Made by a program: the position numbers and the translations under genes
The notes under the pieces: generated by a model
Database searches by the model: none
What the model was told of the DNA's origin: nothing
What the model saw: only the letters and a program-made list of their open reading frames with translations
Shown: positions 7,504 to 39,363 of the stretch, one piece after another
Position numbering within the stretch: the stretch's first letter is position 1
Layout: each line of letters starts with the position of its first letter
Source of the DNA: a virus
Reading direction: 5' to 3' (one strand)
Length of the DNA: 45,950 bases
Virus record (IMG/VR): IMGVR_UViG_3300045107_000294
Span: 1-45,950 of that record

Positions 7504-8232
7504 ATGAAATTTGAGATAAAACATCGCGGGAACGGCTCTGTGCTGTTCTCTCTTGAAACGACTTCGCTCAAGCTGTGTGTGGAGGCGGCGGTTAAATCCG
7601 GCGTCAACCTGCACGGCGTCAACCTGCACGGCGCCAACCTGTCCGGCGCCTACCTGTCCGGCGCCTACCTGTACGGCGCCAACCTGTCCGGCGTCAACCT
7701 GCACGGCGCCTACCTGTACGGCGCCAACCTGTCCGGCGCCAACCTGTACGGCGCCAACCTGTACGGCGCCTACCTGCACGGCGCCTACCTGTACGGCGCC
7801 AACCTGTCCGGCGCCAACCTGTCCGGCGCCAACCTGTCCGGCAATCGCCTCGTCGGCGAGCGCCCGTTCCTTTCAATCGGCCCAATCGGCAGCCGCGCCG
7901 AGTACCTGAATGCGTTTCTGACGGAGGCCGGCGTGCGCGTCAAGACTGGGTGCTTCTTTGGCACGCTCGATGAATTCGCCGAGGCCGTCAAGACAAAGCA
8001 CGGCACTAATGTTCACGCCGACGAGTACGAAGCTGCGCGTCGCCTCATCTTGTGGCACGCGCATCACTGGACGCCGACCGCCGATGCCCTGTCAGCAGAG
8101 CGCGCTGAGTGGGAGCGGAAGGACAAAGAGCTGAGCGAGAAGCGCACGGCGGAGAAAGCAGCAGGACCTACCGACTCACCAAACTCAACGCCGATGGCAG
8201 CGACCTTCCGAACGACGCGACCGGCCACTTAG
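7504..8232 (+). CDS. Pentapeptide-repeat protein
   Basis: A 242-residue protein. Residues 32 to about 116 are 17 consecutive pentapeptides of the A(N/Y)L(S/H/Y)G type, which fold as a right-handed quadrilateral beta-helix. The N-terminal 30 residues (KFEIKHRGNGSVLFS) and the region after the repeats (RAEYLNAFLTEAGVRVKTGCF...EFAEAV) match a known phage and bacterial protein type in which a short regulatory-looking domain flanks the repeats. The function of such proteins is mostly unknown; some mimic DNA. The last 25 or so residues (from about EKAAGPTDSPN) look like out-of-frame reading of the following DUF1566 gene, suggesting loss of the original stop. Ribosome site AAGGAG at 7490-7495. Confidence 0.85.
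   Translation: MKFEIKHRGNGSVLFSLETTSLKLCVEAAVKSGVNLHGVNLHGANLSGAYLSGAYLYGANLSGVNLHGAYLYGANLSGANLYGANLYGAYLHGAYLYGANLSGANLSGANLSGNRLVGERPFLSIGPIGSRAEYLNAFLTEAGVRVKTGCFFGTLDEFAEAVKTKHGTNVHADEYEAARRLILWHAHHWTPTADALSAERAEWERKDKELSEKRTAEKAAGPTDSPNSTPMAATFRTTRPAT
7597..7845 (+). repeat. 15-bp minisatellite encoding pentapeptide repeats
   Basis: About 17 tandem copies of a 15-bp unit of the form GGCGYCWACCTGYNC. Variation is confined to a few positions and synonymous drift is almost absent, so the array looks recently expanded or homogenised. All copies keep the reading frame of the pentapeptide protein. Confidence 0.95.
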
Positions 8233-8616: not shown

Positions 8617-8973
8617 ATGAAAACGCTTGACGAGTTGACGGTTCCCGCGACGCCCGCCCGGCGATTGCTAGAGCGGGACATCCAGGAGAAGTGCGTCGAA
8701 TGGGCTCGCCGGCGCGGCTACTGGGCGCGGAAGTTCTCGAGCATCAGCCAGCGCAGCGTGCCCGACTACCTGTTTGCGAGGGCCGAAGATCTGGGCTTCC
8801 GCGGCCCGGTAAAGTTCGCCGTCGAATTCAAGGCCCCCGGCAAGACGAGCACGGCCGCGCAAAAGGACGAGCAACAGGTCATGCGCTCGGCAGGCTGGGA
8901 CGTCTTTGAATGCGATAGTTTCGACGGTTTTGCCGAGCGGGTCAGGAAGCTGGAAAATGCGGCAGCGGTCTGA
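8617..8973 (+). CDS. VRR-NUC domain nuclease
   Basis: This 118-residue protein carries the compact VRR-NUC (PD-(D/E)XK) core: an ERDIQEKCVEWARRRG helix, QRSVPDYLFA (catalytic Asp), FAVEFKAPGK (E-x-K pair) and a following QKDEQQVM helix. Stand-alone phage VRR-NUC proteins are structure-selective or Holliday-junction nucleases in replication and repair. ATG 8617 was preferred to TTG 8614. An AGGTGA at 8608-8613 is the ribosome site. Its 3' end overlaps the helicase gene by 17 bases, an association common in phages (VRR-NUC followed by an SNF2 helicase). Confidence 0.87.
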   Translation: MKTLDELTVPATPARRLLERDIQEKCVEWARRRGYWARKFSSISQRSVPDYLFARAEDLGFRGPVKFAVEFKAPGKTSTAAQKDEQQVMRSAGWDVFECDSFDGFAERVRKLENAAAV

Positions 8974-10357
8974 CTTGTATCGCTACCAGCGGCACGCCGT
9001 CGACTTCGTGAAGTCGCGGAAGAACTGTGCGTTGTGGGTGGACATGGGGCTCGGCAAGACGGTGTCGACGCTCACCGCGTTCGCCGATCTGCAAGACGAG
9101 ATGCAGGCACACCGGGCACTCGTCATCGCCCCGAAGCGAGTGGCGCGCAAGGTGTGGAGTGACGAGATCCAAGCGTGGGAGCACCTGTCGCACCTCAAGG
9201 TAGTGCGCGTCGTCGGAGACGCGAAGCAGTGTTTTGAGGCGCTGAAGGAACCTGCCGACATCCACACGATCGGCCGCGACCGGATGGCGTGGCTGCACGC
9301 CCAGTTCATCCGCGACGGCAAGCAGGCGGTCGAGTGGCCGTGGGACACCGTCATCGCGGACGAGGCGCAGTCTTTCGCCTCGCACTCAAGCCAACGGTTC
9401 AAAGCGCTGGCGGACCTGCGCGTGCAGACCCGATTTGCCCGCATGATCGAGTTGAGCGGCACACCGATGCCGAACGGCTACATGAAGCTGTGGAGTCAGA
9501 TCTGGCTGCTCGACCGCGGCCAGCGGCTGGGCCACAAGCCGACGACGATGCGCGATCGGTGGTTCACGCCGCCCGTCGGCATCTTTGCGAAGTGGAACAT
9601 CCGGCCGACGGCGCCGGCCGAGATCCAGCACAAGCTGCGCGACATCGTGCTCGTGCTGCGCGAGGAAGACTACCTCGACCTGCCGCCGGTCGTCGACAAC
9701 TTCGTCCGTTGCGAGCTCAGTCCGGCGGCGATGGCGACGTACAAGAAGTTCGAGCGTGAGTTCATCGCCGAGGTGGCCGGCAAGAAACTGACCGCGGTGA
9801 ATACCGGCGTGCTCGACGGCAAGCTACTGCAGTTGGCCAACGGCGCGGTCTACCATGCGGACAAGCAATGGGTGCCGTTCCATGATGCAAAACTTGAAGC
9901 GCTCGAGGAGACCCTTGAGGGGATCTCGGGCAAGGTGCTGATCGCCTATGGATACAAACACGACCTCGCGCGCATGCGTCCGGTTCTGGACCGAATGGCG
10001 GCGGCAGATGGCCGCGTCTGGCGTGTGCTCGATACGGACAAGGACTTTCAGGACTGGGCGGAGGGGCGGATCGACTGGGGTGTCCTTCACCCTGCAAGTG
10101 CCGGGCACGGGCTCAACGATGTCTACAAGGCGGGTGCTGAGGATCTCGTCTGGTTCGGGCTTACCAACAACCTCGAGTATTATCAGCAAGCCTGCGCTCG
10201 ACTCACCGGGGGCCATCGCCGCGCAGGTCGCAGCATTAGGATCCATCATCTCGTCGCGGACGGCACGCGGGATGACAACTACGTCCGGTTGATCCAGAAC
10301 AAGGCGCTTGATCAGGACAATCTTACGGCAGCTCTTGCAAGGATGATCAACACATGA
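8957..10357 (+). CDS. SNF2/DEAD-type superfamily 2 DNA helicase
   Basis: A 466-residue helicase. Motif I (Walker A) is DMGLGKT, motif II is the DEAQ box in VIADEAQSF, motif III is LSGTPMPN, and the C-terminal lobe ends in QQACARLTGGHRRAGR, an altered motif VI, followed by IHHLVADGT. The order and length fit phage SNF2-like helicases that serve replication, or fork or junction processing alongside a VRR-NUC nuclease. It overlaps the nuclease gene upstream. Its stop overlaps the ATG of the first sugar-nucleotide gene (ATGA), so the helicase and the sugar cassette seem to be on one message. Confidence 0.88.
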   Translation: MRQRSDLYRYQRHAVDFVKSRKNCALWVDMGLGKTVSTLTAFADLQDEMQAHRALVIAPKRVARKVWSDEIQAWEHLSHLKVVRVVGDAKQCFEALKEPADIHTIGRDRMAWLHAQFIRDGKQAVEWPWDTVIADEAQSFASHSSQRFKALADLRVQTRFARMIELSGTPMPNGYMKLWSQIWLLDRGQRLGHKPTTMRDRWFTPPVGIFAKWNIRPTAPAEIQHKLRDIVLVLREEDYLDLPPVVDNFVRCELSPAAMATYKKFEREFIAEVAGKKLTAVNTGVLDGKLLQLANGAVYHADKQWVPFHDAKLEALEETLEGISGKVLIAYGYKHDLARMRPVLDRMAAADGRVWRVLDTDKDFQDWAEGRIDWGVLHPASAGHGLNDVYKAGAEDLVWFGLTNNLEYYQQACARLTGGHRRAGRSIRIHHLVADGTRDDNYVRLIQNKALDQDNLTAALARMINT

Positions 10358-11157
10358 AGATCCTGGTATTCGGTGGCGCCGGCATGCTGGGCCACCAGCT
10401 CGTGAAGACACTGCACCGAGCGGGACACGAGGTACAAGCCCCGTCGAGCGATGCGGTGGACATCCGCCGTTTCGTGGACCTTGCAAACATCGCTCACGCG
10501 TTCCGGCCGGAGGTCATCATTAATTGCGCCGGGATCGTGAAGTCGCAGCGGGTCTCCCGCGAGACCATGATTGAAGTCAACGCGCTCGCACCGCACACGA
10601 TACATTACGTGGCGCAAGTTGCCGGTGCGCGGATGATCCACATCAGCACGGACTGCGTCTTCAGTGGAAACACGCCGCTGGGAAATCTGTACACCGAGCA
10701 CGCCGTCCCCGATCCGCGCGACACCTACGGGCAGACGAAGTTGCTCGGCGAGGTTACTGATCGTGGGTGCGTGACTCTGCGCACGTCCATGATCGGCCGG
10801 GAGAACAGGGTGCAACCGCACGGCCTGCTTGAGTGGTTTCTTGCGCAACGGGGAACGGTGACCGGCTGGTCGAATGCTTGGTTCAACGGGCTGACAACGC
10901 AGGCGCTGAGCCGGGCGATCTTGCACGTTCTGGTTCGCCCCCAGCATTCGGGGCTGTACCACGTCGGCACCGTACCGATCACGAAGGCGATGCTGCTTTG
11001 CATGCTGGCGGCGCACTACCGCGGGTCATACGCCCCGGCGGACATCAAACTCGCTGCCGAGCCGCGCATCAATCGCGCCCTCGACCCGACGAAGTTTAGG
11101 CGCGACTTCGACTGGACCCCGCCGACGTGGGGCCAGATGATAGGGGAACTCGAATGA
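10354..11157 (+). CDS. RmlD-like NAD(P)-dependent sugar-nucleotide reductase
   Basis: A 267-residue short-chain dehydrogenase/reductase of the extended type. Seen features are the Rossmann glycine motif GGAGMLG (residues 7-13), the ISTDCVFSG active-site serine region, and YGQTK (catalytic Tyr and Lys). It belongs with RmlD, WbvR and the N-terminal half of CapF/WbjC, which reduce a 4-keto-6-deoxy sugar nucleotide. The C-terminal cupin domain of CapF/WbjC (about 370 residues in total) is absent, so the WbvR-like type leading to UDP-L-RhaNAc and UDP-L-QuiNAc is the better fit. It is coupled by 4-base ATGA overlaps to the helicase upstream and the dehydratase downstream. Confidence 0.85.
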   Translation: MKILVFGGAGMLGHQLVKTLHRAGHEVQAPSSDAVDIRRFVDLANIAHAFRPEVIINCAGIVKSQRVSRETMIEVNALAPHTIHYVAQVAGARMIHISTDCVFSGNTPLGNLYTEHAVPDPRDTYGQTKLLGEVTDRGCVTLRTSMIGRENRVQPHGLLEWFLAQRGTVTGWSNAWFNGLTTQALSRAILHVLVRPQHSGLYHVGTVPITKAMLLCMLAAHYRGSYAPADIKLAAEPRINRALDPTKFRRDFDWTPPTWGQMIGELE

Positions 11158-12131
11158 CGTTCTACGCCGGCCGGACTCTGCTCGTCACCGGAGGCACCGG
11201 TTCATTCGGCCGTACGATGGTCGAACACTTCCTGAAGACCGACATCGAGCGGATCGTCGTGTTCAGCCGCGACGAGAAGAAACAGTTCGACATGCAGGTC
11301 GAGCTCGGTGATCCGCGACTGCACTACGTGCTCGGCGACGTGCGGGACTACGGCAGCATTCGCGCCGCGCTGGTCGACGTCGACTACGTGTTCCACGCAG
11401 CGGCGCTCAAGCAGGTGCCGTCGTGCGAACGGCAGCCGGACGAAGCGTTCAAGACGAACGTGCTGGGCGCAGACAACGTCATGCGTGCCGCGATCGACGC
11501 GCAGGCGCACAAGGTAGTGCTGCTGAGCACCGACAAGGCGGTGTACCCGGTCAGCGCGATGGGGATGTCGAAGGCGATGATGGAGAAGTTGATGCTCGCC
11601 CGGTCGCTTGAGTCGCGCGTGACGACGATCTGCGCCACGCGCTACGGCAACGTCATGGGCTCGCGGGGCAGCGTGATCCCGTTGTTCGTGAAGCAGCTAC
11701 TTGAGGGCAAGCCGCTCACCGTGACGAACGGGGGCATGACGCGCTTCTTGATGTCGCTGCAGGAGTCGGTCGACCTGGTGCTGCACGCGTTCGCGTGCGG
11801 CGGCCCGGGGGATCTCTTCGTGCGCAAGGCCGACGCGTGCACGATCGAAGATCTGGCTGCCGCTGTGCGGGAGATCGTCGGGGAACCGACAAGTCCGATC
11901 GTTGTGACGGGAACTCGCCCCGGGGAGCGGATGCACGAGACGCTGCTGTCGCAGGAGGAGATGGCGCGCGCGGTGTCTCACGAGCAGTATTTCCGGGTGC
12001 CCCGGGACACCGGCGGCTTTTCCGGCTCGTGGGTTCCGTATGCGTCCAACAATAGCTACCGGCTGCGCGGCCCGATGCTTCGCAACGTGATTCGCCCCGT
12101 CGTCGAGGAGGTGCTCGCATGCTCAAGGTAA
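11154..12131 (+). CDS. UDP-GlcNAc 4,6-dehydratase/epimerase (CapE/WbjB family)
   Basis: A 325-residue extended SDR enzyme. TGGTGSFG (residues 12-19) binds the nucleotide, and FHAAALKQVPSCE, LSTDKAV (D127, K128) and ATRYGNVMGSRGSVIP are diagnostic for the polysaccharide-biosynthesis dehydratase family FlaA1/CapE/WbjB. The usual YxxxK is MGMSK, with Met136 and Lys140. I recall a methionine at this position in CapE, so it points to that branch, with inversion at C5, rather than to a dead enzyme. Expected reaction: UDP-D-GlcNAc to a UDP-4-keto-6-deoxy-hexosamine, with epimerisation. Gene order reductase-dehydratase-epimerase, with overlapping ends, marks a dedicated pathway. Confidence 0.88.
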   Translation: MTFYAGRTLLVTGGTGSFGRTMVEHFLKTDIERIVVFSRDEKKQFDMQVELGDPRLHYVLGDVRDYGSIRAALVDVDYVFHAAALKQVPSCERQPDEAFKTNVLGADNVMRAAIDAQAHKVVLLSTDKAVYPVSAMGMSKAMMEKLMLARSLESRVTTICATRYGNVMGSRGSVIPLFVKQLLEGKPLTVTNGGMTRFLMSLQESVDLVLHAFACGGPGDLFVRKADACTIEDLAAAVREIVGEPTSPIVVTGTRPGERMHETLLSQEEMARAVSHEQYFRVPRDTGGFSGSWVPYASNNSYRLRGPMLRNVIRPVVEEVLACSR

Positions 12132-13198
12132 TGACGTTCGTCGGAACGCGCCCGGAGATCATCAAGCTGAGTTGCGTGCTGCCGGCGCTCGACAAGGCGT
12201 TCGAGCATACGCTCGTGGACACCGGCCAGAACGGCGCGGTGGAACTCAACGGGAATTTCTTCGACGAGTTGGGGCTTCGGCACCCGGACCTGTGGTACGC
12301 GCCGTGGCACTACGAAGGCCCCTGCGGGGCCTTGGCAGAGATGCTTACATGCTGCGATGACGCGCTTCGGTCACGCAAGCCCGACGCCGTGTTGATCCTC
12401 GGCGACACGAACTCGGCCGTCGCGGCCGCGTACGCCGCGAAGCGCGCGCACGTTCCGATCTTCCACATGGAGGCCGGCAACCGTTGCTTCGATGAACGTG
12501 TACCGGAGGAGGCCAACCGGCGCGTGGTCGACCACCTCGCCGACATCAACATGCCCTACACCGAGCACGCGCGCACGAACCTCCTGCGCGAGGGCATCGC
12601 GCCGGACCGGATCATCAAAACCGGGTCGCCAATGCTGGAAGTGCTGAGCAAGCACATGCCCGACTTGGGGGCCTACCCCCGGTCGGAGTTCGTGGTGAGC
12701 TGCCACCGGGAAGAGAACGTCGACGACCCCGCCCGGCTGGCAGCGCTGGTGTCGACGATCAACGCGCTGGCGGCTCGCGGGACAGTGCTGTTCTCCTGCC
12801 ACCCCCGCACGCGCTCGCGGCTGGGAGACGTGACCTTCCCGGCGAACGTCGAAGTTCTTCCGCCGCTCGGGTTCAAGGCATACGTCGCCGCGCAACACGG
12901 CGCCGGATGCGTCATTTCCGACAGCGGCACGCTCACCGAGGAGGCGGCGATTCTCGGATTCCCGGCCGTGATGATCCGCCAGGCACACGAGCGCCCGGAA
13001 GGGATGGATGAAGGGGTTGTGGTGATGTCCGACCTGAACGCGCAGGAAGTGCTGGCTGCGGTCGACTTGGCGGTCTCAAAGCCGCGCGGGCACCGCGTGA
13101 CGCCGCATGATTACAGCGTCTGGCATGTTTCGGACAAGGTCGTGAATACGATCGCGAGCTACACCGGCTACGCGCGCCGGACGGTGTACCGGAAATGA
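12119..13198 (+). CDS. UDP-N-acetylhexosamine 2-epimerase (WecB/CapG/WbvD family)
   Basis: A 359-residue non-hydrolysing UDP-HexNAc 2-epimerase. Family marks are FVGTRPEIIKL at the N-terminus, DTGQN, LGDTNSA, FHMEAGNRCFDERVPEE, VSCHREEN and SDSGTLTEEA near the C-terminus. In pathways with a CapE/WbjB-type dehydratase and a reductase, the third enzyme (CapG, WbjD, WbvD) inverts C2 to give UDP-L-FucNAc or UDP-L-QuiNAc. The start overlaps the dehydratase by 13 bases. This is the last large gene of the rightward block; the end product would need a dedicated transferase, for which the glycosyltransferases at 29.0-31.5 kb are candidates. Confidence 0.9.
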   Translation: MLKVMTFVGTRPEIIKLSCVLPALDKAFEHTLVDTGQNGAVELNGNFFDELGLRHPDLWYAPWHYEGPCGALAEMLTCCDDALRSRKPDAVLILGDTNSAVAAAYAAKRAHVPIFHMEAGNRCFDERVPEEANRRVVDHLADINMPYTEHARTNLLREGIAPDRIIKTGSPMLEVLSKHMPDLGAYPRSEFVVSCHREENVDDPARLAALVSTINALAARGTVLFSCHPRTRSRLGDVTFPANVEVLPPLGFKAYVAAQHGAGCVISDSGTLTEEAAILGFPAVMIRQAHERPEGMDEGVVVMSDLNAQEVLAAVDLAVSKPRGHRVTPHDYSVWHVSDKVVNTIASYTGYARRTVYRK

Positions 13199-13302
13199 GA
13201 GACCCGGAGAAGTATAGCTGGTTCCCGTCGCCAGGGCCGGAGCCTCGCTGGCTTCGGTGGCTACGTTCAGCCCTCGAGCGCCTCGCTCGTAAAGCCTATT
13301 GA
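13195..13302 (+). CDS. Possible 35-residue peptide coupled to the 2-epimerase gene
   Basis: An ATG overlaps the epimerase stop (ATGA), the same junction used between the other genes of the cassette. It opens a frame for a tryptophan- and arginine-rich peptide (MRDPEKYSWFPSP, then PRWLRWLRSALERLARKAY) that would form a strong amphipathic helix. The 3' end overlaps the convergent gene by 36 bases. It could be a real small membrane-associated peptide or chance; no homologue comes to mind. Confidence 0.4.
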   Translation: MRDPEKYSWFPSPGPEPRWLRWLRSALERLARKAY

Positions 13303-13767
13303 CGAGAACACGTAGTCGTACGGGAACGACTGGAAGCCCGTCAGATTGGCGAGGATCGTTGCCGCGCGCGTGCCGGCGGGCGTCGTCATGATGTAGTCGA
13401 CGAGCTCGGTCTGCTTCTGGTACAGGTACTGCTGGTAGACCTCGAGCGGGCTGACGATCCCGTCGGCACGCGGATCCGCGGGCGGCGCGTTGGTCACGAG
13501 CGTCTGTGCATCCGTCACGAGCTTCAGCAGCGCCGCGCCCGTCTTGTCGCCAACAGGCGCCGTGTAGGTCGCGAGGATCGTGCCGGCGTTAAGCCAGCCC
13601 GTCGACATGTAGTGGTCGACCGCCTGGATCTGCAGCGCGTTCAGTAGCTGCTGGTTCTGGTACAGCACGGCAGGGTTGGCGTTGGCTGTGACCAGCGCCT
13701 GCACGGTGGCGATCTGCGCGTCGAGCAGCGCACCTTGCGTGTCGAGCGGCGGGGCGGTGACCGTCAT
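13267..13767 (-). CDS. MTVT-family protein with two copies of a small helical module
   Basis: A 166-residue protein, last in the leftward late block. It starts MTVTAPPLDTQG like the small proteins at 31863-32072 and 32936-33190. It contains the shared pattern of a Gln/Leu-rich helix, a (Y/L)-x3-G turn and (A/S)xTILA twice: around YQNQQLL...YMSTGWLNAGTILA and again around YLYQKQTELVDYIMTTPAG...ATILANL. I know no function. The distribution through the structural block suggests a virion-associated or assembly role, but this is inference. The start overlaps the end of the SprT-like gene by four bases. Confidence 0.75.
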   Translation of the reverse strand: MTVTAPPLDTQGALLDAQIATVQALVTANANPAVLYQNQQLLNALQIQAVDHYMSTGWLNAGTILATYTAPVGDKTGAALLKLVTDAQTLVTNAPPADPRADGIVSPLEVYQQYLYQKQTELVDYIMTTPAGTRAATILANLTGFQSFPYDYVFSSIGFTSEALEG

Positions 13768-14285
13768 GCTTTCCTCACGATCCTCTCAAGCCGGTCGAGC
13801 GAGTTAGACACGCCCGGGTCCAGGTACTTCACTTTCCACGCATCGCAGATGGCGCGCATGCCAACGACCGGGATCATCCGGCAGGTGTCCAGGATGCTGA
13901 TGTGGCAAGCCATGAACTGCGGGCCGTGCGGTTCCTGCTCCCACTTGTCGTCGGCGAGGAAGTGGTGCACCTGATGCGCCAGCTCGTGGGTCACCGTCAA
14001 CGGGTGGCGGGCCCCTTCCTTGGCCGGGTTGAACGCGATCGTGGTGCGGCCTTCGTCGCTGATTGACCACTCCGCGCCCCACCGGCCAAGGGGGCGCCAC
14101 ACGACTCGCGGAACCGGTACACGGTAGTTCCGGCACACCCGCCGGACGAGTTCCTCGATCTTGGCGTTCGTCATGCCGCGGTAGGCCCGCGCCCCGATCG
14201 CCTCGTTCTCCATGCGATACACGCGAAACCGCTGGGGATCTGATCGCGGACTCCGCGCGATCGGCATCCGGTACTTCTCCGCCAC
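13764..14285 (-). CDS. SprT-like zinc metalloprotease
   Basis: A 173-residue protein with the zinc-protease motif HELAH (H100, E101, H104) followed by HGPQF (H120, probable third ligand). The spacing and surrounding TIAFNPA strand fit SprT-like and related minimal metallopeptidases. The GTG start is supported by a strong GGGAGG ribosome site four bases upstream on the coding strand. It lies between the holin genes and the end of the late block. Roles known for SprT-type domains include DNA-protein crosslink repair, but in a lysis or virion block it could process a virion or host protein. Substrate unknown. Confidence 0.78.
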   Translation of the reverse strand: MAEKYRMPIARSPRSDPQRFRVYRMENEAIGARAYRGMTNAKIEELVRRVCRNYRVPVPRVVWRPLGRWGAEWSISDEGRTTIAFNPAKEGARHPLTVTHELAHQVHHFLADDKWEQEPHGPQFMACHISILDTCRMIPVVGMRAICDAWKVKYLDPGVSNSLDRLERIVRKA

Positions 14286-25791: not shown

Positions 25792-28394
25792 TACTGGTCA
25801 CTCGCTAGTTCGGTGTCGAGGTACATGAGATGGAACGGAAGCGGATCCACCTGCGTGAACGTGACGGTCTTGTTGTCCGCCTCGTCCCAGTTCGAGGAGT
25901 CTTCGACGGACAGCGTACCGCTGAACGGCGCGGGCGCGGAGTCGAAGTTGATCGTATCTATCGTCGCGGTCGGCAGGATCTCGGCACTCTCGCCGTTGCT
26001 GTTGTACAGCAAGCCAAGGGTGTTCAACACCTTCGCGCGGATCTTTCGGATGCGACGCTTCTGCGCCAAATTTGAGCCCGACGGCCACCGTACCGTTTGC
26101 ACCGGCATCGGCGTGACTTTCGGGTTATAGTTCAACCCGATCTCGTAGGTCGTCGCATTGTAAGCGCGGCCGTCGAGCGTCAGCGAAACGGTGCCGTTAA
26201 CCGGGACGACGTCATCGAGGATGATGCCGCCGTCGACGCGCACCCGACACGTCAGTCCGTTCAGCCAGCTCAGACCCGAGACCGTGTTGACCGTGCCGCC
26301 GGGCGTGACCACGCCCGTGCCGCAGTCCGTAAACGTGCCTTCGGTGGCCTGCTCAAGAATCAATGCGGAAGCACCGCTGCCGAGCGTACGCTGCACGAGG
26401 AAGAACACGTTCTCGACGATCGCGCAGACATTCATGAACTTGCCGCTCGTCTGCCACAACGTCCAGCCCGAGACGTTGGCCTCCTTACGCGTGTTGAACA
26501 CACCGCAAGTGCCGTCCGGCAACGGGTTCGGGTTCACGGGGTCATTTACCCGCCCGTTTACACCGTTGCACACGAAGACGAGGTTGATCTCCTCAAGCGT
26601 CGAGCCGTTCCACGACGCCATGTCCTGCACGTTGTAGACGAGGTTGCCCGCAAAGGACGAGAGACCGAGGGAGTTGAATTGGTCCTGCGTGTAGTCGAAC
26701 TGAAAATCGCGGATCGAATTCTTGTTCCGCTGCACGAAGACGATGTTGCCGTCAATCATGACAGGCTTGATCTTCGCGGTGCCGTACTGGGTCTGGTTGA
26801 TCGGCGCGCTGGCTGGCGTGATCGGCTGCTGGTTTTCGTTCGGGAAGCGGAATTCGCCGCCCGTGGTGAACAGGCACAGCGAACGCCCAGGGAAAAGCGC
26901 GGTGATCGCGTTCAGCGCCACGCCATTGAGCGTGACAAAGATCGCCTGGTCGTCGAGACCCTGATCGGTCGCGAAGTTCAGGATATCGTCGACCCAGCTT
27001 CCGATGACGCTTTCCGGGAGCGACTTGAGACCGGCAAAGTACATGCGGCCTTGGAAAAACGTCACGACGCTCGGGTAACCGCGCGTTGCGCTCCACGCCG
27101 GTTCCTGCCGCGAGACACCCGTCTGCGTGCTCACCGCGGTGGCAGTAGCCGAGGAACTCAACGAGGTGATCGAGATGACGCCCATCGGGCCGGCGGCATC
27201 GTTGGCGAACGTCAGCGTGTAGGTGTACGTGCCATTGCTTGTGCAGCTTACACCGGTGAAACCGTTGACCACCCACAACGCCTGCACCGCCTTCGCGATC
27301 GCGTTGGCGGTGGTCTGATTGTCGCCCGCGTACGTGATCGGCCCGGTCGTGTCGGTCAGGATCGTGAGCGTGAACGTGTCGCCCGGGTTCCAATCGCTCG
27401 TGAACGTCAGCGTCTGGATCTCCGACGTTGGCGTCGGGCTGGCCGAATCAGCAAAGTCCACCTTCGGGATGTTTGCAAAAGTAGGCAGGTACGTTTGAAA
27501 ATTGTAATAGCTGGCGTTTGCAACCCCCGTCGCCAGCGGCGACGACAGCCGGATCAGGAACTGCGGCGCATAGTTCGCGTGCACAATCATCATGGACTCG
27601 GCGGTCGAAGCCGCATCGAGCGCCGCGAGATCGCCGGTCGCATACGGCAGCGCCACGTAGTCGACGACCGCGCCGTTCGATGTGATGATGGCCGAATGAT
27701 CCGACAGCACAGCTACATACTGCTCGCCGGTGGACACCTCGAACGGCAGTAGGCGGCCGGCCGAGAGGCGGCCCGTGTCACCCCAGATGACAAAGTCGGA
27801 AAACGACACTTCCGACGCCAGCGCCGTGCCGCCGATCTTCGCCACGCGCCAGTACCGCGCAGCCGTGTACGTCGCCGGGTAGGTAACACCGGCGGTACGG
27901 CGGTACGTGTACGGCGCCGTGCTGTCGAGCTGAGGGAACGCGGTGCCCAGCGTCGTCCAATTTGTATTGTCGTTGCTATACTGGATTTGAAACTGGGTGC
28001 TCGAGCCGCTGGCGAGCGTGATGTTCAGGCAGTCGGCAAACAGAACGTTCTGGACGCTGCCAAGATCCACGGACACGAGCACCCACGGGTTCGTGGTATT
28101 CGGCGGCGTGGTGGTTGTGAACGTGTTGGTCTGGCTGTTGGTGCCAAGGCCCACCGTCGACACGGGCCCGTTCGGCAGCGCGTAGGTGCCGGTGAGGATT
28201 TGGATCTGGTTCGGGCACACCAGCTTCTGCACCAGCCCGCGGCGGCGCTGCACGCCGCCGAGATGGATCATCTCGACGTTCGTGCCCTCGAGCATGCTCG
28301 AGATGTACGCGTTCGTGTCGACGCGACCCTGCGCCCGCTGATCCAGAACTCCCGAGAGGAAGTTGTTCTGGATACTGTGGGTCTTGATCTCCAC
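25791..28394 (-). CDS. Tail tubular protein B-like nozzle protein
   Basis: An 867-residue protein beginning with IQNNFLSGVLDQRAQGRVD, then NAYISSMLEGTNVEMIHLGGVQRRRGL, the standard N-terminal signature of podovirus nozzle and stabilisation proteins (T7 gp12-like). Later segments (FFQGRMYFAG, LGLSSFAGNLVYNVQDMASW, VYQRTLGSGASALILE-like) fit the same family. It includes inserted Ig- or discoidin-like beta regions (residues ~100-200 with SVDLGSVQNVLFADCLNI), longer than T7 gp12. It starts with GTG at the TAGTG junction with tail tubular A. It should form the tail end through which DNA passes. Confidence 0.85.
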   Translation of the reverse strand: MEIKTHSIQNNFLSGVLDQRAQGRVDTNAYISSMLEGTNVEMIHLGGVQRRRGLVQKLVCPNQIQILTGTYALPNGPVSTVGLGTNSQTNTFTTTTPPNTTNPWVLVSVDLGSVQNVLFADCLNITLASGSSTQFQIQYSNDNTNWTTLGTAFPQLDSTAPYTYRRTAGVTYPATYTAARYWRVAKIGGTALASEVSFSDFVIWGDTGRLSAGRLLPFEVSTGEQYVAVLSDHSAIITSNGAVVDYVALPYATGDLAALDAASTAESMMIVHANYAPQFLIRLSSPLATGVANASYYNFQTYLPTFANIPKVDFADSASPTPTSEIQTLTFTSDWNPGDTFTLTILTDTTGPITYAGDNQTTANAIAKAVQALWVVNGFTGVSCTSNGTYTYTLTFANDAAGPMGVISITSLSSSATATAVSTQTGVSRQEPAWSATRGYPSVVTFFQGRMYFAGLKSLPESVIGSWVDDILNFATDQGLDDQAIFVTLNGVALNAITALFPGRSLCLFTTGGEFRFPNENQQPITPASAPINQTQYGTAKIKPVMIDGNIVFVQRNKNSIRDFQFDYTQDQFNSLGLSSFAGNLVYNVQDMASWNGSTLEEINLVFVCNGVNGRVNDPVNPNPLPDGTCGVFNTRKEANVSGWTLWQTSGKFMNVCAIVENVFFLVQRTLGSGASALILEQATEGTFTDCGTGVVTPGGTVNTVSGLSWLNGLTCRVRVDGGIILDDVVPVNGTVSLTLDGRAYNATTYEIGLNYNPKVTPMPVQTVRWPSGSNLAQKRRIRKIRAKVLNTLGLLYNSNGESAEILPTATIDTINFDSAPAPFSGTLSVEDSSNWDEADNKTVTFTQVDPLPFHLMYLDTELASDQ

Positions 28395-29008
28395 TACCGG
28401 ACCTGCACGAACTGATTGTGCGCGATCGGCCGGTTCGGCCGGCCCTGCGCATCGGCGTGCATCGCGCGATTACGCTGAAGGGTGTACTTCGTTTGCATGG
28501 CCGAGGCCGCAGAATCGCTTTCCGAGATCGGCTTGATCATGTCCTTCGCGAGCGCGTACGTAACGAGCAAGCTGAAGTACGACGGCACGGTCGACGGATC
28601 CGGCTTGAACATGTAGTCGAACGTGAGGTACGCGTTTGACGCGTTCACCGGACCGGGGTTCGACGTGATGTTGGTGTAGATCACGTCCGAGTAGATCTCG
28701 TACGTGCGGTCTGGGCCAACGCCCCAGAAACCGATCGGCAAGAGCATGTCGGTCGGGAGTTGAAAGCAATACTGCCACTCGTTCGGCGGTGTAGCGTTGA
28801 TCTGCGCGAGCTGCGCTTTCTTGCACGCGAATCGCCAGCGGTTGCTCTGCAGCTCATTCTCATAGACCATGTCGAACAGAGCCGCACCGACAGCGGCGCC
28901 GTAGCGCGCATCGGTGAGGCTGTTCATCGGTTTCTCGCCGCAGAGCACCAGCGCAGCCGAGATCATGCTCAGCTTCGTCTGGTTAACAATGGGGGCTGCA
29001 GCAGTCAT
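28394..29008 (-). CDS. Tail tubular protein A-like (gatekeeper/adaptor)
   Basis: A 204-residue protein with the T7 gp11-like order: helical NQTKLSMISAALVLCGEKPMNSL, YGAAVGAALFDMVYENELQSNRWRFACKKAQL, then WQYCFQLPTDMLLPIGFW, ANAYLTFDYMFKPDPSTVPSYF and a final helix. It forms the ring between portal and nozzle. In this genome it is separated from the head genes by the glycosyltransferase cluster, rather than directly following the capsid region as in T7. Confidence 0.85.
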   Translation of the reverse strand: MTAAAPIVNQTKLSMISAALVLCGEKPMNSLTDARYGAAVGAALFDMVYENELQSNRWRFACKKAQLAQINATPPNEWQYCFQLPTDMLLPIGFWGVGPDRTYEIYSDVIYTNITSNPGPVNASNAYLTFDYMFKPDPSTVPSYFSLLVTYALAKDMIKPISESDSAASAMQTKYTLQRNRAMHADAQGRPNRPIAHNQFVQVR

Positions 29009-29011
29009 GGG

Positions 29012-29629
29012 CTACCTATACAGATTGGTGAACGGCGCCGCCTGCCAGGGCCGGGGCTGGCCGTGGAAACATACGACGCGGGCGTCGGGCGGCACTCCAT
29101 GCTGGCAGTGCACTTTGTACGATACCACCTGGCCGGGGAGCACATCCTGCCAACGCTTCGCCGTCTTCAGCCAAAAACGCTCGAACAGGAACTGGTCGCC
29201 GCCGCGGTGGAATGTCATCGCGAACTCCGGATTCGCGGTGAAATAGTCCCACACGGGCTTGCGTGCCGCGGCAGGCAGGTAGATCAGGCCGCCGCCGAGA
29301 CCTTCGCGCAACTTTTTTCCGTCGCGATAGAAGTCGCGCAGCAGCGTCAAGTCCGTCACGCCCTCGAAGTCATCAAGCGGACCGACGATCACAGTGTCGA
29401 GGTCCATGAAAAGGAAGTCGCCCGGCAACGCCGGATCGAACAACTCCATCTTCGACCACCAGCCGGGCCAGTTGCGTTTCAACGGCCGGCAGTCGACGCC
29501 CTCGACGGGCACGTTGGTCAGGCACTCGAAGCTGGCCAGCGGGGCCCAGCGCGCGACCTGCTCTTGCAACGCGCGAACGTGCACCGGGGCAAAGTCGCCG
29601 CCCGACTTGAGGACGGTGACTATGCGCAT
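29012..29629 (-). CDS. DxD glycosyltransferase (GT-A fold), copy 2
   Basis: A 205-residue protein beginning MRIVTVLKSGGDF. The centre reads NWPGWWSKMELFDP...LFMDLDTVIVG, with D76-x-D78 as the metal- and UDP-binding DxD motif, and a C-terminal VVCFHGQPRPWQ, as in GT8/GT32-like transferases. It is clearly paralogous to the protein at 30864-31547. The acceptor is unknown. It overlaps the start region of the gene upstream by 10 bases, so it is co-translated with the GT2, methyltransferase and first DxD gene, in the late block between capsid and tail tubes. Virion or surface-glycan modification are the plausible roles. Confidence 0.82.
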   Translation of the reverse strand: MRIVTVLKSGGDFAPVHVRALQEQVARWAPLASFECLTNVPVEGVDCRPLKRNWPGWWSKMELFDPALPGDFLFMDLDTVIVGPLDDFEGVTDLTLLRDFYRDGKKLREGLGGGLIYLPAAARKPVWDYFTANPEFAMTFHRGGDQFLFERFWLKTAKRWQDVLPGQVVSYKVHCQHGVPPDARVVCFHGQPRPWQAAPFTNLYR

Positions 29630-30336
29630 TGCTGGAACTCCGGCAGGTGGCCCCATTTCTGACGCAGCAGGGCCACGTTGTCTCGGCGCGTCGTCCACCC
29701 ATGCCGGGTGACGTAGTGCCACACGGTAACTGGGGCGAACTTGAAGTTCACGTCGCCAAGCGCGTGCAGGCGCCACAACCAGTCGTTGTCGTCGCAGCCA
29801 GCCCCGGCCCGGTACTCTTCGTCGAACCCGCCAGCGCGCTCAAACAGCTCGCGGTGGAACATGACGCAGAAATGCAGCGTCGTGCCGGTCGGGATCGGCT
29901 GGCGCCCGCCAGTCGGGGCGCGGGGCGCCTCAGGGCCGGCGATCCAGTCGCCGCCGGTGCGCTCGAACAGACCGACTCGCTGAGCGGCGTTGCGGCAGCC
30001 CGCCATCACGTAGTCGTTCGGGCCAGTCAGCATCTCAAGCATCGCCTGCAGCACTGGCTCCCGGTGCTCGATCTCCGGATTGGTCAGGACGATTACGTCA
30101 CGCGTAGACGCGCGGATCGCCCGGTTGATCGGGACGCACGGATTCAACGCTTGCGTCTTCACCGGCAGCTTCGTCAGGATGCAGTTCCGCGGCAAGCGCC
30201 CTGGAGGCTGCGTCGAGCCGTCGTCGCAGATCGAAAACTCGAGGTCCGCGCCGGGGTACGCTTTCGCGTACGACGCAAGCGAGCGCTCGAGTTCGCGCGG
30301 CCGGTTCCAATACGGCATGCAGATCGACAGCTTCAC
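29620..30336 (-). CDS. GT2-family glycosyltransferase
   Basis: A 238-residue protein with GTG start at a GTGA overlap with the methyltransferase stop. It starts KLSICMPYWNRPRELERSLASY, then ISICDD-like FSICDDGST (D38, D39), NRAIRASTRDVIVLTNPEIEHR and FDEEYRAGAGCDDNDWLWRLHALG, giving the canonical order of GT-A GT2 enzymes: the first Asp for UDP, and the ED/DDxxWxxR motif for acceptor and catalytic base. The MAGCRNAA...HFCVMFHRELFERAGGFDE segment is typical of GT27/GT2 galactosyltransferase-C-like domains. Donor and acceptor unknown. Confidence 0.87.
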   Translation of the reverse strand: MKLSICMPYWNRPRELERSLASYAKAYPGADLEFSICDDGSTQPPGRLPRNCILTKLPVKTQALNPCVPINRAIRASTRDVIVLTNPEIEHREPVLQAMLEMLTGPNDYVMAGCRNAAQRVGLFERTGGDWIAGPEAPRAPTGGRQPIPTGTTLHFCVMFHRELFERAGGFDEEYRAGAGCDDNDWLWRLHALGDVNFKFAPVTVWHYVTRHGWTTRRDNVALLRQKWGHLPEFQQCA

Positions 30337-30854
30337 GCGCGGGTCCAGAGCGCAAAGAACTGGTTCACGCCGGCCGGCTCGATCTTCCAGTCCGGAAAGT
30401 CCGCTGGCGTCCACCCGCTGCGGTGCCGCTGCCAATACTCGCCGCCCAGGCCCCACGCATCGCCTTCCTGAGGCAGAAACCCGTTCGGCGTAAACACAAC
30501 GACTTGCTTCGGGCCGAGTGCCTGCGCCATGCTGAGCACCAGCCCGCCGCCGGGACGCGTCATGTGCTCGATCACGTCGAGCAGGTAGACCGCGTCGAAC
30601 TGACCGAGGTCGAGCGAGCTCAGCGCGTCAAACGCCGTTTTCCGCAGCACTTCGTAGCCGGCCTGCTCGAGTCGGTCCGCGTAAGGCGCGAACGGCTCCA
30701 CGCACACATGCCGCTCGGGGCGATACCACGGCATCGGCCGTAGACCCGCGCCAATGTCGAGTACCCGCCGGCCAGGGATCAAGCCCGCGGGCGGCGGCAG
30801 CCCAGATGCGACCAACCCGTTCTCGAGCGTCGCGACCCCGTTTGGTAGAGTCAT
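30333..30854 (-). CDS. Class I SAM-dependent methyltransferase
   Basis: 173 residues. Motif I is VLDIGAGLRP (residues 31-40), motif II falls at HVCVEPFAP, and YLLDVIEHM matches the acidic post-motif seen in small-molecule or sugar methyltransferases of the Methyltransf_11 or 23 type. It is embedded between glycosyltransferase genes, which suggests O-methylation of a sugar or an acceptor, but a nucleic-acid or protein target is not excluded. The N-terminus is short (about 25 residues before motif I), so it has no added recognition domain. Confidence 0.83.
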   Translation of the reverse strand: MTLPNGVATLENGLVASGLPPPAGLIPGRRVLDIGAGLRPMPWYRPERHVCVEPFAPYADRLEQAGYEVLRKTAFDALSSLDLGQFDAVYLLDVIEHMTRPGGGLVLSMAQALGPKQVVVFTPNGFLPQEGDAWGLGGEYWQRHRSGWTPADFPDWKIEPAGVNQFFALWTRA

Positions 30855-30863
30855 CCCCTTCTC

Positions 30864-31547
30864 CTACTCGTACAGACCCATCAGCTTGAAAACGGGCAAC
30901 GTCCACGGGCGCCACGGCTGGTAGCAGAGGAACACCCGAGTCTCCTGCGGGATATCCGCAACCCGCAGCGGCCACAACGAGCGGCGCCACGGCGCGCTCG
31001 CCATCTTCAATTGCGGCGCCAGCAGCGCGATGTTGAAGACCTGACCGGGGAACAGCTCCTCCCAGCACTGCTCGGCAGTGACCACCGAAGCAATAAAGCC
31101 GCCGTCGCCAAAACGATGCTTCACCTCGGCGTTCTCGCGCGCGAACCGGTGCATGTGCCCGGCCGGATCGCGAATCCACTCCGCCCAGATCTTTGCCCGT
31201 GTTGCCGCCGGGTAGAACGCCAGGGCGTTCGACTGCCCGCGTTGCGTCGTGTAAGCGGTAACGCTGAGAATATCGCTCAGCGGCCCGAGGAACACGTTGT
31301 CAAGGTCGGTACACAGCAAGTCGCCTTCGATGTCCGGGCGGAAGAGCTCCATCTTGCTCCACCATCCCGGCCAATTGTACCGGGAGGGGATGCGGGGCAC
31401 CCCGGGGACCTCGACGTCCGAGAGACACTCAAACCGTGCCTCCGGCGCCCAGCGCGCAGCCTGCCGCTGCAACGCCTGCGCATGGCGCGGCTGAAATTCG
31501 CCGCCGCTGCGCAGCACGGCGACGACCCTTCTCCCTTCGGCCGCCAT
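30864..31547 (-). CDS. DxD glycosyltransferase (GT-A fold), copy 1
   Basis: A 227-residue paralogue of the protein at 29012-29629. Shared blocks are VLRSGGEFQPRHAQALQ, RWAPEARFECLSDVE, NWPGWWSKMELFRP, LCTDLDNVFLGP (D81, D83) and a C-terminal VFLCYQPWRPW. The middle differs more, so acceptor choice may have changed. The gene opens the four-gene transferase/methyltransferase run and is 9 bases upstream of the methyltransferase. Family-level function (retaining or inverting transfer from a nucleotide sugar) is secure; donor and target are unknown. Confidence 0.82.
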   Translation of the reverse strand: MAAEGRRVVAVLRSGGEFQPRHAQALQRQAARWAPEARFECLSDVEVPGVPRIPSRYNWPGWWSKMELFRPDIEGDLLCTDLDNVFLGPLSDILSVTAYTTQRGQSNALAFYPAATRAKIWAEWIRDPAGHMHRFARENAEVKHRFGDGGFIASVVTAEQCWEELFPGQVFNIALLAPQLKMASAPWRRSLWPLRVADIPQETRVFLCYQPWRPWTLPVFKLMGLYE

Positions 31548-31862: not shown

Positions 31863-32072
31863 TTAGGACAGGGTCGAGAGCACGGTCGCCGCCGTGATAC
31901 GGCCGACCATCAGGTAGTGGAGCACGAGCTCGCGCTGCGCCTGGTCAAGCGCCGCCGCGATCGCCGGGGCGTGCGCTTTACCGCCGGCGCTCGCAAGCGT
32001 CGCCGTGAGGTTAGTCACGATCGTTGCGAGGCGCGCGCCTTCGGAATCGCGCGGGTTGGCAGTCACAGTCAT
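31863..32072 (-). CDS. MTVT-family small protein, 69 residues
   Basis: Starts MTVTANPRDSEGARLATIV and ends in a helix-turn HYLMVGRITAATVLSTLS. It contains one copy of the module that occurs twice in the 166-residue protein at 13267-13767 and once in 32936-33190. It overlaps the stop of the DUF115-like gene by four bases. No function known; see the finding on this family. Confidence 0.72.
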   Translation of the reverse strand: MTVTANPRDSEGARLATIVTNLTATLASAGGKAHAPAIAAALDQAQRELVLHYLMVGRITAATVLSTLS

Positions 32073-32677
32073 TTTGGTTCACCTAAGAGTTGCCGGGTAT
32101 ACCCGGACATTGAAAACACGCGGCCCTTAAATTCGCCTGCCGCTAGCTCCGCGAACCGCGAGCGGTAGGCTTTGATGATCCTCGTTTCCTGCACTGGCAC
32201 CCCCAGCCCGCGGGCAATGCCGTGGTCGCCGATGCGCTGGCACGAAATGTGCTGCGGCACCTTCGCCTCGCCAGGGAAGTACCCCGGCTGGTCGAGCGGG
32301 CACCCGCACAAGATGACCTCGTCTGCACCCAGCAGGAACGCGAGTTTCGCGCCTTTGCTGGCCGACGTGGCTCCGACGCCCACCTCGTGCGGCCACCAGT
32401 CGGTGACCGACGGGAAGAGCTGCTTCGCGGCCGCCACCCTGTGCGGGTGGCTGCACGCGTGCAGCCGCCACGGCGGTGCACCCGGAAAGCGGGCCCGGCG
32501 TTCCCGGGCGAAGAACTCCGCTTTCTCCTCGTGGCCCGCGAGCACGTGCTCGGCGTTTTCGATCGCCGTGCACGCCCCGTTGACCAGCATGATGCTAGCC
32601 AGCGGTCGAAGCGTCAGCGCCCGTTCGACATCGTCGAACAGGCACGGAGCGCTGCCGACCACAAGCATCGTGCTCAC
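32069..32677 (-). CDS. DUF115/Maf- or MptE-like Rossmann-fold protein
   Basis: A 202-residue protein with a GTG start (ATG nine bases on is an alternative). The N-terminal VVGSAPCLFDDV resembles the GxGPSL loop of DUF115 proteins, and TSASKGAKLAFLLGADEVILCGCPLD matches their second nucleotide-binding half (the G.. ALxLGxxxIxLxGxD pattern). DUF115 proteins include flagellin glycosylation (Maf) enzymes and 6-hydroxymethylpterin diphosphokinases; phage homologues are annotated as 'norphogenetic protein' without known role. Placement just ahead of the glycosyltransferases favours a glycan role over pterin metabolism. Inference from weak motifs. Confidence 0.65.
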   Translation of the reverse strand: MSTMLVVGSAPCLFDDVERALTLRPLASIMLVNGACTAIENAEHVLAGHEEKAEFFARERRARFPGAPPWRLHACSHPHRVAAAKQLFPSVTDWWPHEVGVGATSASKGAKLAFLLGADEVILCGCPLDQPGYFPGEAKVPQHISCQRIGDHGIARGLGVPVQETRIIKAYRSRFAELAAGEFKGRVFSMSGYTRQLLGEPK

Positions 32678-33591: not shown

Positions 33592-34467
33592 TCAGGTGCC
33601 GTAGACGTTGACGATCACGACACCCAGCGGGTCGATCACGGCGCTGCCGCCCATGTAGATCGACTGCGAGAGCCACGCGCCGTTCTGCGGGATGAAGTCA
33701 ACCCGCGACTGCGGCTCGATCGCCGTGGCGAGGCCGACCGCGCGCTTGTCGTACGCGAAGCACTCCGTCACGTTGGTCGAACCCGTGGGCAGGCCGCCCT
33801 CGACGCGGTTTTCGATCACCTTGAAGGTGAAGCCGAACGCCTTCTTGTTGTTCATGTCGGCGTCGACGAGAGCGCGCATCGTCTGGTAGTCGGCGCTCGT
33901 TACCTCAACCTCGGCCAGCGCCGTCTCGAGCGCGATGGCGTTGATCGCCATGTAGTGATCGCCGCCCGACGCCTGCTGCTGCACGAGGTACCGCTTCGCG
34001 TGACGGATCTTGTCCGCCGTGAGGCCGGTGTTCGTGCCGCCGTAGCCGGACGTGACGGTGCCCGCCGGGCCGCTCACCGCTGCGAGGGCGTTGATGATGA
34101 GCTGGTCCTCAGCACGGCCGATCGCCTTCGCGTTGTTCTGCGCGAGGAACGAACGCTCGTCGATGTTCGTCTCCGCCTGGTCGAACAGGTCGGTGTAGTC
34201 GCCGACGCGCCAGTTCGTCAGGGTCGCGAAGATCTTCGTGTGGGTCGTGTCGTTCGGCGTGATCTGTTCGGCCGACGTGGTCTGCTGGTAGGCCACCGAG
34301 TAGCCAACCTTGCGGAACGCGTACTGCTGGCCGACGACGCCGGACTTCTGGTAGACGCTCGAACGAAGAACGCCCTCGCCCTGGTAAGCGAGTTTGACTT
34401 CGGTGTCGAACGCAGCGATCGCCGCGTTCGTGGTGGAGCTGTAAGTGCCCCCAAGATGGATGGACAT
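33592..34467 (-). CDS. Major capsid protein
   Basis: A 291-residue protein, directly downstream of the scaffold region. The sequence has the features of an HK97-fold coat protein: an N-arm, a long spine helix (KIRHAKRYLVQQQA), EVTSADYQTMRALVDAD and a beta-rich A-domain-like end (NGAWLSQSIYMGGSAVIDPLGVVIV) finishing the chain. No protease or maturation domain is nearby, as expected for phages with a separate scaffold. A 214-bp leader precedes the gene, the longest gap inside the head genes, and may carry its own promoter or a processing site. Confidence 0.85.
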   Translation of the reverse strand: MSIHLGGTYSSTTNAAIAAFDTEVKLAYQGEGVLRSSVYQKSGVVGQQYAFRKVGYSVAYQQTTSAEQITPNDTTHTKIFATLTNWRVGDYTDLFDQAETNIDERSFLAQNNAKAIGRAEDQLIINALAAVSGPAGTVTSGYGGTNTGLTADKIRHAKRYLVQQQASGGDHYMAINAIALETALAEVEVTSADYQTMRALVDADMNNKKAFGFTFKVIENRVEGGLPTGSTNVTECFAYDKRAVGLATAIEPQSRVDFIPQNGAWLSQSIYMGGSAVIDPLGVVIVNVYGT

Positions 34468-38267: not shown

Positions 38268-38717
38268 CTACCTCGAGTTGATCACGCCGTCGCGCGCAGC
38301 GACGTAGCGGTAGAGTTGGTACGGGGTCCGCACCCAGAATGCGCGAATCCCCAGAAACATCTTGACGACCTCGACGCAGGTCTGCGGGCCGACGTCGAAC
38401 CAGCTCCGCATGCTGCCGACCGTGCGCATCGCCGTCACGCGCTGAACTACGCACCCGGGCCAGCGCACCCACGGCGGCCGCGGGTCGGCGCACAAGTCCG
38501 CGTCGATCATTTCGTACGTCGGCTGCACGTGCAGCCAGGCGACATCTTCGACGCGCGGTCCGTATTGCAACGGCCGCATCAGCTCCACGTGCCGAAATCG
38601 CGGGTTGAGGTACTTGCCCCACCAGCGGTACTGTTCCCGCGCGTGGTAGACCACATACCAGTCGGTGACGCGCTTGCCCGCAGAGTCTAGAAGGCTAGGA
38701 CTCGTAGGGGCTGGCAT
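38268..38717 (-). CDS. Conserved hypothetical protein near terminase
   Basis: 149 residues, beginning MPAPTSPSLLDSAGKR and continuing DWYVVYHAREQYRWW, RFRHVELMRPLQYGPR, WLHVQPTYEMIDADL and VVKMFLGIRAFWVRTPYQLYRYV. The 'WYVVYH...W.. LLKPGFRHV' and 'TPYQLYRHL' patterns recur in phage proteins encoded next to the portal, with unknown function; several have two small alpha/beta halves. ATG 38717 gives a 23-base overlap with the phosphatase-like gene. Confidence 0.75.
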   Translation of the reverse strand: MPAPTSPSLLDSAGKRVTDWYVVYHAREQYRWWGKYLNPRFRHVELMRPLQYGPRVEDVAWLHVQPTYEMIDADLCADPRPPWVRWPGCVVQRVTAMRTVGSMRSWFDVGPQTCVEVVKMFLGIRAFWVRTPYQLYRYVAARDGVINSR

Positions 38718-39363
38718 CTTCGTGGCCGAGCATGACCTCGCAGTGCCAATCACCGTCGACGCAATGCAGAGCCGCGAGGCCGCCTTCGTCGAGGTCGGTC
38801 GCACTCTCGTCCCCGAACAGCTCGAGCCCGATCAGGCGCAACGTCGAGCCCGACAGCACGAGCAGCGGCGTCTGCTCGCCCGCCGCGACTTCGTCAAGCT
38901 CGTCGCGGAACCACGACAGGAACCGATCGCGGAACTCGCCGTACGACTCGCCGCCGAGCGGGCGCTTCGACGGATCTTCCTTCATCAGCTTGACTTTCGG
39001 GCGCCCGTCTTCCTTGCGCATGCCCGCGAGGATCCCGAGGTTCCACGTGCGCGCTTCCGGCGTCTCGACGACTTCCGGCCGCGTCAGCGTGCCCGACTGG
39101 ATGATCTCGGCGGTTTCTTTCGTGCGCTTCAGGTCCGCCGCGTGAATGCGCGTCAGCGGCGCCGTCTTCAGGAGCTGCTGCGCAGGGATCAGCTTGACAC
39201 GCCCCTCGTCCGTCAGCGGCATGTCGAGCCAGCCGTCGGAACGATTCGCACCCATGTCCATCGCCGTGCGGCCGTGCCGCATCAGGTACATGGTGCCCTT
39301 GACGCTCGGCCGCGGATCAACGAGGCTCGAGCCGTCGGATGTGTCGAGCAAGCTACCAGCCAT
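38695..39363 (-). CDS. Histidine-phosphatase-fold protein with altered second catalytic His
   Basis: 222 residues with the full outline of the phosphoglycerate-mutase/histidine-phosphatase superfamily: YLMRHGRT (R29, H30), WLDMPLTDEGR, ADLKRTKETAEII (the phosphate-binding Arg), PEARTWNLGI, GGESYGEFRDRF and LLVLSGSTLRLI. In the last block the usual reading is VSHGGTIR; here the histidine position is Ser171. H30, which would carry the phosphoryl group, is present. It may be an inactive binding protein or work with other residues. It overlaps the terminase stop by 11 bases, an unusual place for such an enzyme. Confidence 0.85.
   Translation of the reverse strand: MAGSLLDTSDGSSLVDPRPSVKGTMYLMRHGRTAMDMGANRSDGWLDMPLTDEGRVKLIPAQQLLKTAPLTRIHAADLKRTKETAEIIQSGTLTRPEVVETPEARTWNLGILAGMRKEDGRPKVKLMKEDPSKRPLGGESYGEFRDRFLSWFRDELDEVAAGEQTPLLVLSGSTLRLIGLELFGDESATDLDEGGLAALHCVDGDWHCEVMLGHEDASPYES

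Follow-up and report, generated by a model that had tools for sequence, protein, structure and literature searches.

Two bacterial O-antigen loci, FnlA-QnlA-QnlB of Escherichia coli O98, whose antigen contains N-acetyl-L-quinovosamine (L-QuiNAc), and WbvB-WbvR-WbvD of Vibrio cholerae O37, produce the uridine diphosphate (UDP)-activated form of this sugar, UDP-L-QuiNAc. The eukaryotic giant virus Megavirus chilensis takes the same three steps for its own particle: Mg534-Mg535-Mg536 supply UDP-N-acetyl-L-rhamnosamine (UDP-L-RhaNAc) and UDP-L-QuiNAc for fibril glycans (PMC9614988, PMC10117803), and the fibrils carry L-RhaNAc, 4-O-methylated L-RhaNAc (4OMe-L-RhaNAc) and L-QuiNAc (PMC9614988). Here we describe a triad of genes from these families in a phage DNA of 45,950 nucleotides, the IMG/VR virus record IMGVR_UViG_3300045107_000294 (positions 1-45,950, one strand; this whole stretch is called the window). 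We consider it fairly probable that two operons of the phage together provide a rare-sugar glycosylation system of its own, with the virion as target.

Phage glycosyltransferases linked to virion or morphogenesis genes are known from mycobacteriophages, whose virion glycosylation is attributed to Freeman 2023 in PMC12619734, and from phage P1, where the function of PmgQ/PmgO is only putative. No phage-made nucleotide sugar of the triad's type was found described for these systems. The rml operon of Phapecoctavirus ESCO13 is also a phage-borne nucleotide-sugar pathway, but it is directed to deoxythymidine diphosphate (dTDP)-L-rhamnose and includes a true RmlD, with Tyr at the position of the cysteine discussed below. 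A literature search, mostly of papers available without subscription, did not find the triad reported in phages.

Three donor enzymes

The triad consists of three genes:

10354..11157, plus strand: QnlA/WbvR-type nucleoside diphosphate-4-keto-sugar reductase, 267 amino acids, no cupin; presumed C3-epimerase/C4-reductase (PF04321, 2.6e-31)
11154..12131 (ATG at 11154), plus strand: FnlA/CapE-type UDP-N-acetylglucosamine (UDP-GlcNAc) 4,6-dehydratase/5-epimerase, 325 amino acids, short latch region (TIGR04130, 2.6e-110; PF02719, 1.8e-97)
12119..13198, plus strand: CapG/WbvD/QnlB-type non-hydrolysing C2-epimerase, 359 amino acids (PF02350, 4e-79)

All family matches lie far beyond chance. The original prediction, made from the sequence, had named a WbvR/RmlD-like reductase, a CapE/WbjB-like dehydratase and a WecB/CapG-like 2-epimerase at 10354-13198, and profile and structure-database searches bear these families out. 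Placement in unrelated families is ruled out, and catalytic residues are present in all three enzymes.

The nearest solved structures are FnlA/CapE for the dehydratase (58% identity to PDB 4j2o over the aligned part) and CapG for the epimerase (4e-95 to PDB 4hwg; 6e-86 to CapG 7ya2), which also matches QnlB of O98 with 344 bits and retains R11, D96, E118, E131 and H196. The dehydratase carries D-K and MxxxK like CapE; it matches bacterial FnlA (4j2o, 345 bits) more closely than Mg534 (4tqg, 167 bits), which has YxxxK instead. A PseB (pseudaminic acid) reading was rejected, given the MxxxK in place of the YxxxK of PseB and a TIGR03589 score of 280 bits against a cut-off of 408. The C-terminus of the enzyme is shortened: the region matching 'NYSKYYEHGDKNLSLVED' of O98 FnlA, part of the latch region, is absent, and Mg534 has likewise been reported to miss part of its C-terminal latch region (PMC4691112). 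Among other phage dehydratases, one of 691 amino acids (L167, 6543-8618; also L255, 5927-8002) shows an apparent intein-like insertion just after the catalytic STDKA.

For the reductase, a single search gave 136 bits to QnlA from an E. coli O98 locus versus 42 bits to a phage RmlD, and in the reductase tree RmlD is a far outgroup. The RmlD (dTDP-rhamnose) reading was also rejected on a TIGR01214 score of 105.6 bits, below the cut-off of 224, with no rml partners alongside. The enzyme has an STDC motif with C101, together with Y125 and K129. This Cys sits where RmlD carries Tyr; all 18 bacterial reductase homologues have it, as do 28 of the 35 viral ones. According to a Chem Rev review (PMC9614988), the cupin-free Mg535 retains the catalytic cysteine for C3 epimerization that is known from guanosine diphosphate (GDP)-fucose synthase, and C101 would be its equivalent here.

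CapE-CapF-CapG, WbjB-WbjC-WbjD and FnlABC, which make UDP-N-acetyl-L-fucosamine (UDP-L-FucNAc), share the dehydratase and 2-epimerase families with the triad. Their reductase is fused to a PF14667 cupin, whereas the window reductase has only PF04321/PF01370-type matches over its 267 amino acids, with no PF14667 domain, so that the triad is not a member of this group and a CapF-type reading was rejected. No free cupin was recognized among the window genes scanned. The proposal in the original prediction that a missing CapF cupin points to the QuiNAc type thus agrees with the profile matches, the QnlA score and the STDC cysteine. In another viral record, L142, a free-standing CapF-type cupin (8891-9259; PF14667, 6.9e-31) adjoins an epimerase and a dehydratase with no reductase domain recognized nearby, and the same arrangement occurs in L258, L260-L263, L266 and L269.

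All three enzymes of the UDP-L-QuiNAc triads (FnlA-QnlA-QnlB and WbvB-R-D) are represented by family and by catalytic residues. Donor chemistry of this kind is well supported by homology, and the product is probably UDP-L-QuiNAc. It is unlikely that the same pathway ends instead in UDP-L-FucNAc, or mainly in UDP-L-RhaNAc: CapE and CapG are common to the FucNAc pathway, the epimerase has its top identity (51%) to a cupin-type cluster, and in the large viral records L152-L154, whose reductases are the closest to that of the window (42%), overlapping reductase and dehydratase genes without a 2-epimerase would lead no further than UDP-L-RhaNAc, but the window reductase, which has the STDC cysteine, belongs to the cupin-free QnlA/WbvR/Mg535 type and matched no CapF-type reductase of the bacterial loci examined.

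The Megavirus and window systems share the three steps, a cupin-free reductase of similar length (270 and 267 amino acids), a 2-epimerase, a short-latch dehydratase and virus-encoded glycosyltransferases. The Megavirus genes, however, form one cluster, and the methyltransferase for the methylated sugar of its virion is not yet identified there, whereas the window has a candidate. Bacterial clusters with the reductase-dehydratase-epimerase order and overlaps of the window exist (for example, L028 and L039). Unlike the O98 and O37 systems, the window triad lies in a phage without O-antigen export genes, is accompanied by a separate late glycosyltransferase/methyltransferase cassette and has diverged, long-branch sequences.

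The triad as cargo of the early operon

The window has 65% guanine plus cytosine (GC). Its plus strand holds an early operon with DUF2800-like, single-strand binding-like, DNA polymerase, nuclease and SNF2 helicase genes (names taken from translations read by eye, the helicase also from a profile match), and its minus strand holds the late genes. The triad is bordered by:

8954..10357, plus strand: SNF2-type helicase, last conserved early-operon gene upstream of the triad (PF00176, 4.3e-23; 72% homologue in a relative without the triad, G041)
13267..13767, minus strand: convergent late-side gene, downstream border, with a homologue at the equivalent junction in G041 (L249, 104-745)
13764..14285, minus strand: SprT-like protein, second gene at the border (PF10263, 7e-4; homologue in L249)

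As originally predicted, the genes follow the helicase with overlapping stop-start junctions: ATGA between helicase and reductase, ATGA again between reductase and dehydratase, and 13 nucleotides between dehydratase and epimerase. Co-expression with the replication genes is predicted from these overlaps and the strand; a check for promoter-like and terminator-like signals showed no excess of either. Also in the early operon, 7550-8000 (plus strand) encodes a pentapeptide-repeat-like protein (ANLSGANLYGA...).

The helicase of G041 (55,390 bases) is 72% identical to that of the window and is followed by one small open reading frame and then by the convergent and SprT-like genes, with no triad. 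Behind the helicase of G042 (45%) there is no triad either. PF02719 genes are missing from all 12 related records, and PF01370 genes from G041, G042 and G044. Since a close relative has the same junction without the triad, we regard the triad as cargo at the end of the early operon. Its codon usage matches that of the phage (r 0.93-0.98), as does its GC content, and the triad enzymes stand on long branches in trees; the acquisition was therefore not recent. In the epimerase and dehydratase trees the branches are long and support is weak around the window sequences, and we claim no donor lineage from them. A DNA-level search against phages returned a single match (76%), in the helicase. Viral scans with a single protein (epimerase; helicase) gave no match, whereas alignment-based scans did. 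In G042, a frame upstream of the helicase (L250, 2-1234), probably DNA polymerase, seems to hold an intein-like stretch, 'CLAGDTEVLTDKGW'.

Genes of bacterial type that are absent from the closest phage relatives might also have come from misassembly, or from host DNA carried into the contig. We find this hardly credible: the reductase overlaps the phage helicase by 4 nucleotides, the 3' end of the triad stops 69 nucleotides short of a phage gene that has its neighbours in the same order in G041, the codon usage is phage-like and the branches long, and dozens of viral contigs carry similar triads.

Glycosyltransferases and a methyltransferase among virion genes

The presumed users of the sugar lie outside the region singled out by the original prediction, in the late operon, where a methyltransferase and three glycosyltransferases (29012-31547, minus strand) occupy the interval between capsid and tail genes:

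33592..34467, minus strand: major capsid protein, upstream border of the cassette and candidate target (PF19821, 3.7e-58)
32069..32677, minus strand: cassette protein without assigned function (no Pfam or PHROG match; position kept in L174, L175 and L179)
30864..31547, minus strand: glycosyltransferase GTb, DxD, GT8-like (phrog_1962, 3.9e-36; 45% to GTa)
30333..30854, minus strand: S-adenosylmethionine-dependent methyltransferase (MT), with homologues adjoining the triad in other phages (PF13489, 4e-4 alone; 20 of 21 family members match)
29620..30336, minus strand: glycosyltransferase GT2, with a GTG start codon that overlaps the stop of MT (PF00535, 1.9e-8, over the gathering score)
29012..29629, minus strand: glycosyltransferase GTa, GT-A fold, GT8-like, homologue of P1 PmgQ (phrog_1962, 7.2e-49)
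28394..29008, minus strand: tail tubular protein A-like, downstream border (phrog_394, 4.5e-33)

MT, GT2 and GTa are in overlapping frames. The AlphaFold model of GTa has a pLDDT (predicted local distance difference test) of 95, and its best Foldseek matches are GT8, glycogenin and LgtC, with TM (template modelling) scores of up to 0.70; identity to PmgQ is 31.7%. The function of MT is argued from the family scan and from linkage, because its model is poor. For 32069-32677, a reading as a sialyltransferase resembling the neighbour gene of phiNP failed. Another late gene, 38695-39423 (minus strand), located between those for terminase and portal, encodes a member of the histidine phosphatase superfamily (PF00300, 4.9e-23).

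The cultured relative MEP301 has one small gene, and no glycan gene, between capsid and tail tubular A. The closest relatives, L174, L175 and L179, have one GTa-type gene at the cassette position (L174 also an FkbM-type methyltransferase) but lack PF02719 and PF01370 genes as well as homologues of the window MT and GT2. Since these relatives lack MT and GT2, and G041 and G042 lack the triad behind the helicase, the triad, MT and GT2 appear jointly in the window.

Linkage was analysed in the many viral contigs for which alignment-based scans showed a CapE-type dehydratase or a CapG-type epimerase. Triad loci were clustered by 5-mer similarity of the epimerase, and MT and GT2 were counted within 7 kb. 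The whole triad was found in 48 of 93 epimerase-bearing viral loci, forming 31 clusters. The MT family of the window was near the triad in 20 of these clusters and its GT2 family in 22, while both families were absent from 49 dehydratase-only viral loci, 80 bacterial loci and 75 GTa-bearing viral loci (Fisher tests 2e-11 and 7e-13, indications only, clusters and loci not being fully independent). In a separate whole-record count, PF00535 occurred in 12 of 13 records with the epimerase versus 8 of 27 without. The commonest order was GT2-MT-epimerase-dehydratase-reductase (25 loci), with overlapping genes in L293. Several of the loci clearly come from phages: in L138, L142 and L145 there are portal, capsid or adaptor genes, and triad genes stand with glycosyltransferases between capsid and tail genes; in L293, L276, L311 and L330 the genes present include UvsX-like, single-strand-binding, helicase or baseplate ones. 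The window carries this five-gene module split into two operons.

Two further kinds of record are of note. An uncultured phage of 634,780 bases (L013, LR745206.1) has a dehydratase and a WbvR-like reductase about 5 kb apart amid many glycosyltransferase- and methyltransferase-like genes. In the phage database, the dehydratase and the epimerase matched best to 'Staphylococcus phage SA 1298/1306 Kay', in unannotated records that resemble bacterial cap loci, and these matches were not used as phage evidence; the unannotated 'Staphylococcus phage' records OR849864.1 and OR844989.1, with genes like capE and capG, have the appearance of bacterial DNA.

The original prediction had left glycan disguise, host-surface change and a modified virion or DNA side by side. 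We favour a modified virion because the glycosyltransferase/methyltransferase cassette stands among the genes for capsid and tail and, in other phages, shows genetic linkage to the triad. As in mycobacteriophages and P1, glycosyltransferases are encoded among virion genes; as in Megavirus, the virus has both a donor pathway and transferases, here in one contig and linked in other viral contigs. A donor made early could instead reach the host surface before lysis and feed host or phage transferases that alter lipopolysaccharide or capsule and block superinfection, and L-QuiNAc and L-FucNAc pathways are normally O-antigen or capsule genes. This is quite improbable, as the window genes scanned showed neither a flippase or polymerase nor a Gtr-type membrane gene, and the only glycosyltransferases of the window sit among late structural genes, linked to the triad. 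The place of the triad in the early operon, after polymerase and helicase, and the existence of phage glycosyltransferases able to modify DNA (cited in PMC12619734) would fit attachment of the sugar to modified phage bases for restriction escape. Such DNA hypermodification is very unlikely: no base-hydroxylating or hydroxymethylating gene was recognized in the early region read, and the glycosyltransferases belong to the late structural operon.

A proposed split pathway for virion glycosylation

Under virion glycosylation, the dehydratase would act early in infection, turning host UDP-GlcNAc into a 4-keto-6-deoxy-L-sugar by 4,6-dehydration and C5 epimerization. The cupin-free reductase would then yield UDP-L-RhaNAc by C3 epimerization and C4 reduction, part or all of which the 2-epimerase would convert to UDP-L-QuiNAc. 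Late in infection, a virion protein might receive a short glycan built by GT2 with the GT8-like GTa and GTb, and MT might O-methylate a sugar. Gene position and precedent point to the virion as target; we infer the exact product, the timing of expression and the modified protein as well.

Several observations weigh against this scheme. The triad is on the early strand, apart from the glycosyltransferases. MT alone falls below the Pfam cut-off, its model has a pLDDT of 61 and it has no PDB match below 0.001. GTa may use another donor, being present in relatives without the triad, and the host of the phage may already make the sugar of the triad. The control sets of the linkage analysis include many partial contigs among triad records, and clusters may still be related.

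The enzymes, phage nucleotide-sugar genes and a giant virus making UDP-L-QuiNAc for its own particle were already known; what is new is that the triad occurs in tailed phages, that it belongs to a conserved five-gene module and that the window phage has this module divided between two operons. We see an even balance for and against the broader proposal that GT2, MT, 2-epimerase, dehydratase and cupin-free reductase form an undescribed module, widespread among unrelated podovirus-like and T4-like tailed phages and split over early and late operons in the window phage, for host-independent decoration of particles with O-methylated L-RhaNAc/L-QuiNAc, in parallel to giant viruses. If so, some phages would need no host sugars for particle modification, having their own rare-sugar donor pathway and transferases. 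This would make the reason for virion glycosylation, be it protection, adsorption or escape from defence or immune recognition, directly testable, would give the glycosylation of giant viruses its counterpart among phages, and would define a few genes whose loss should strip the sugar from the particle.

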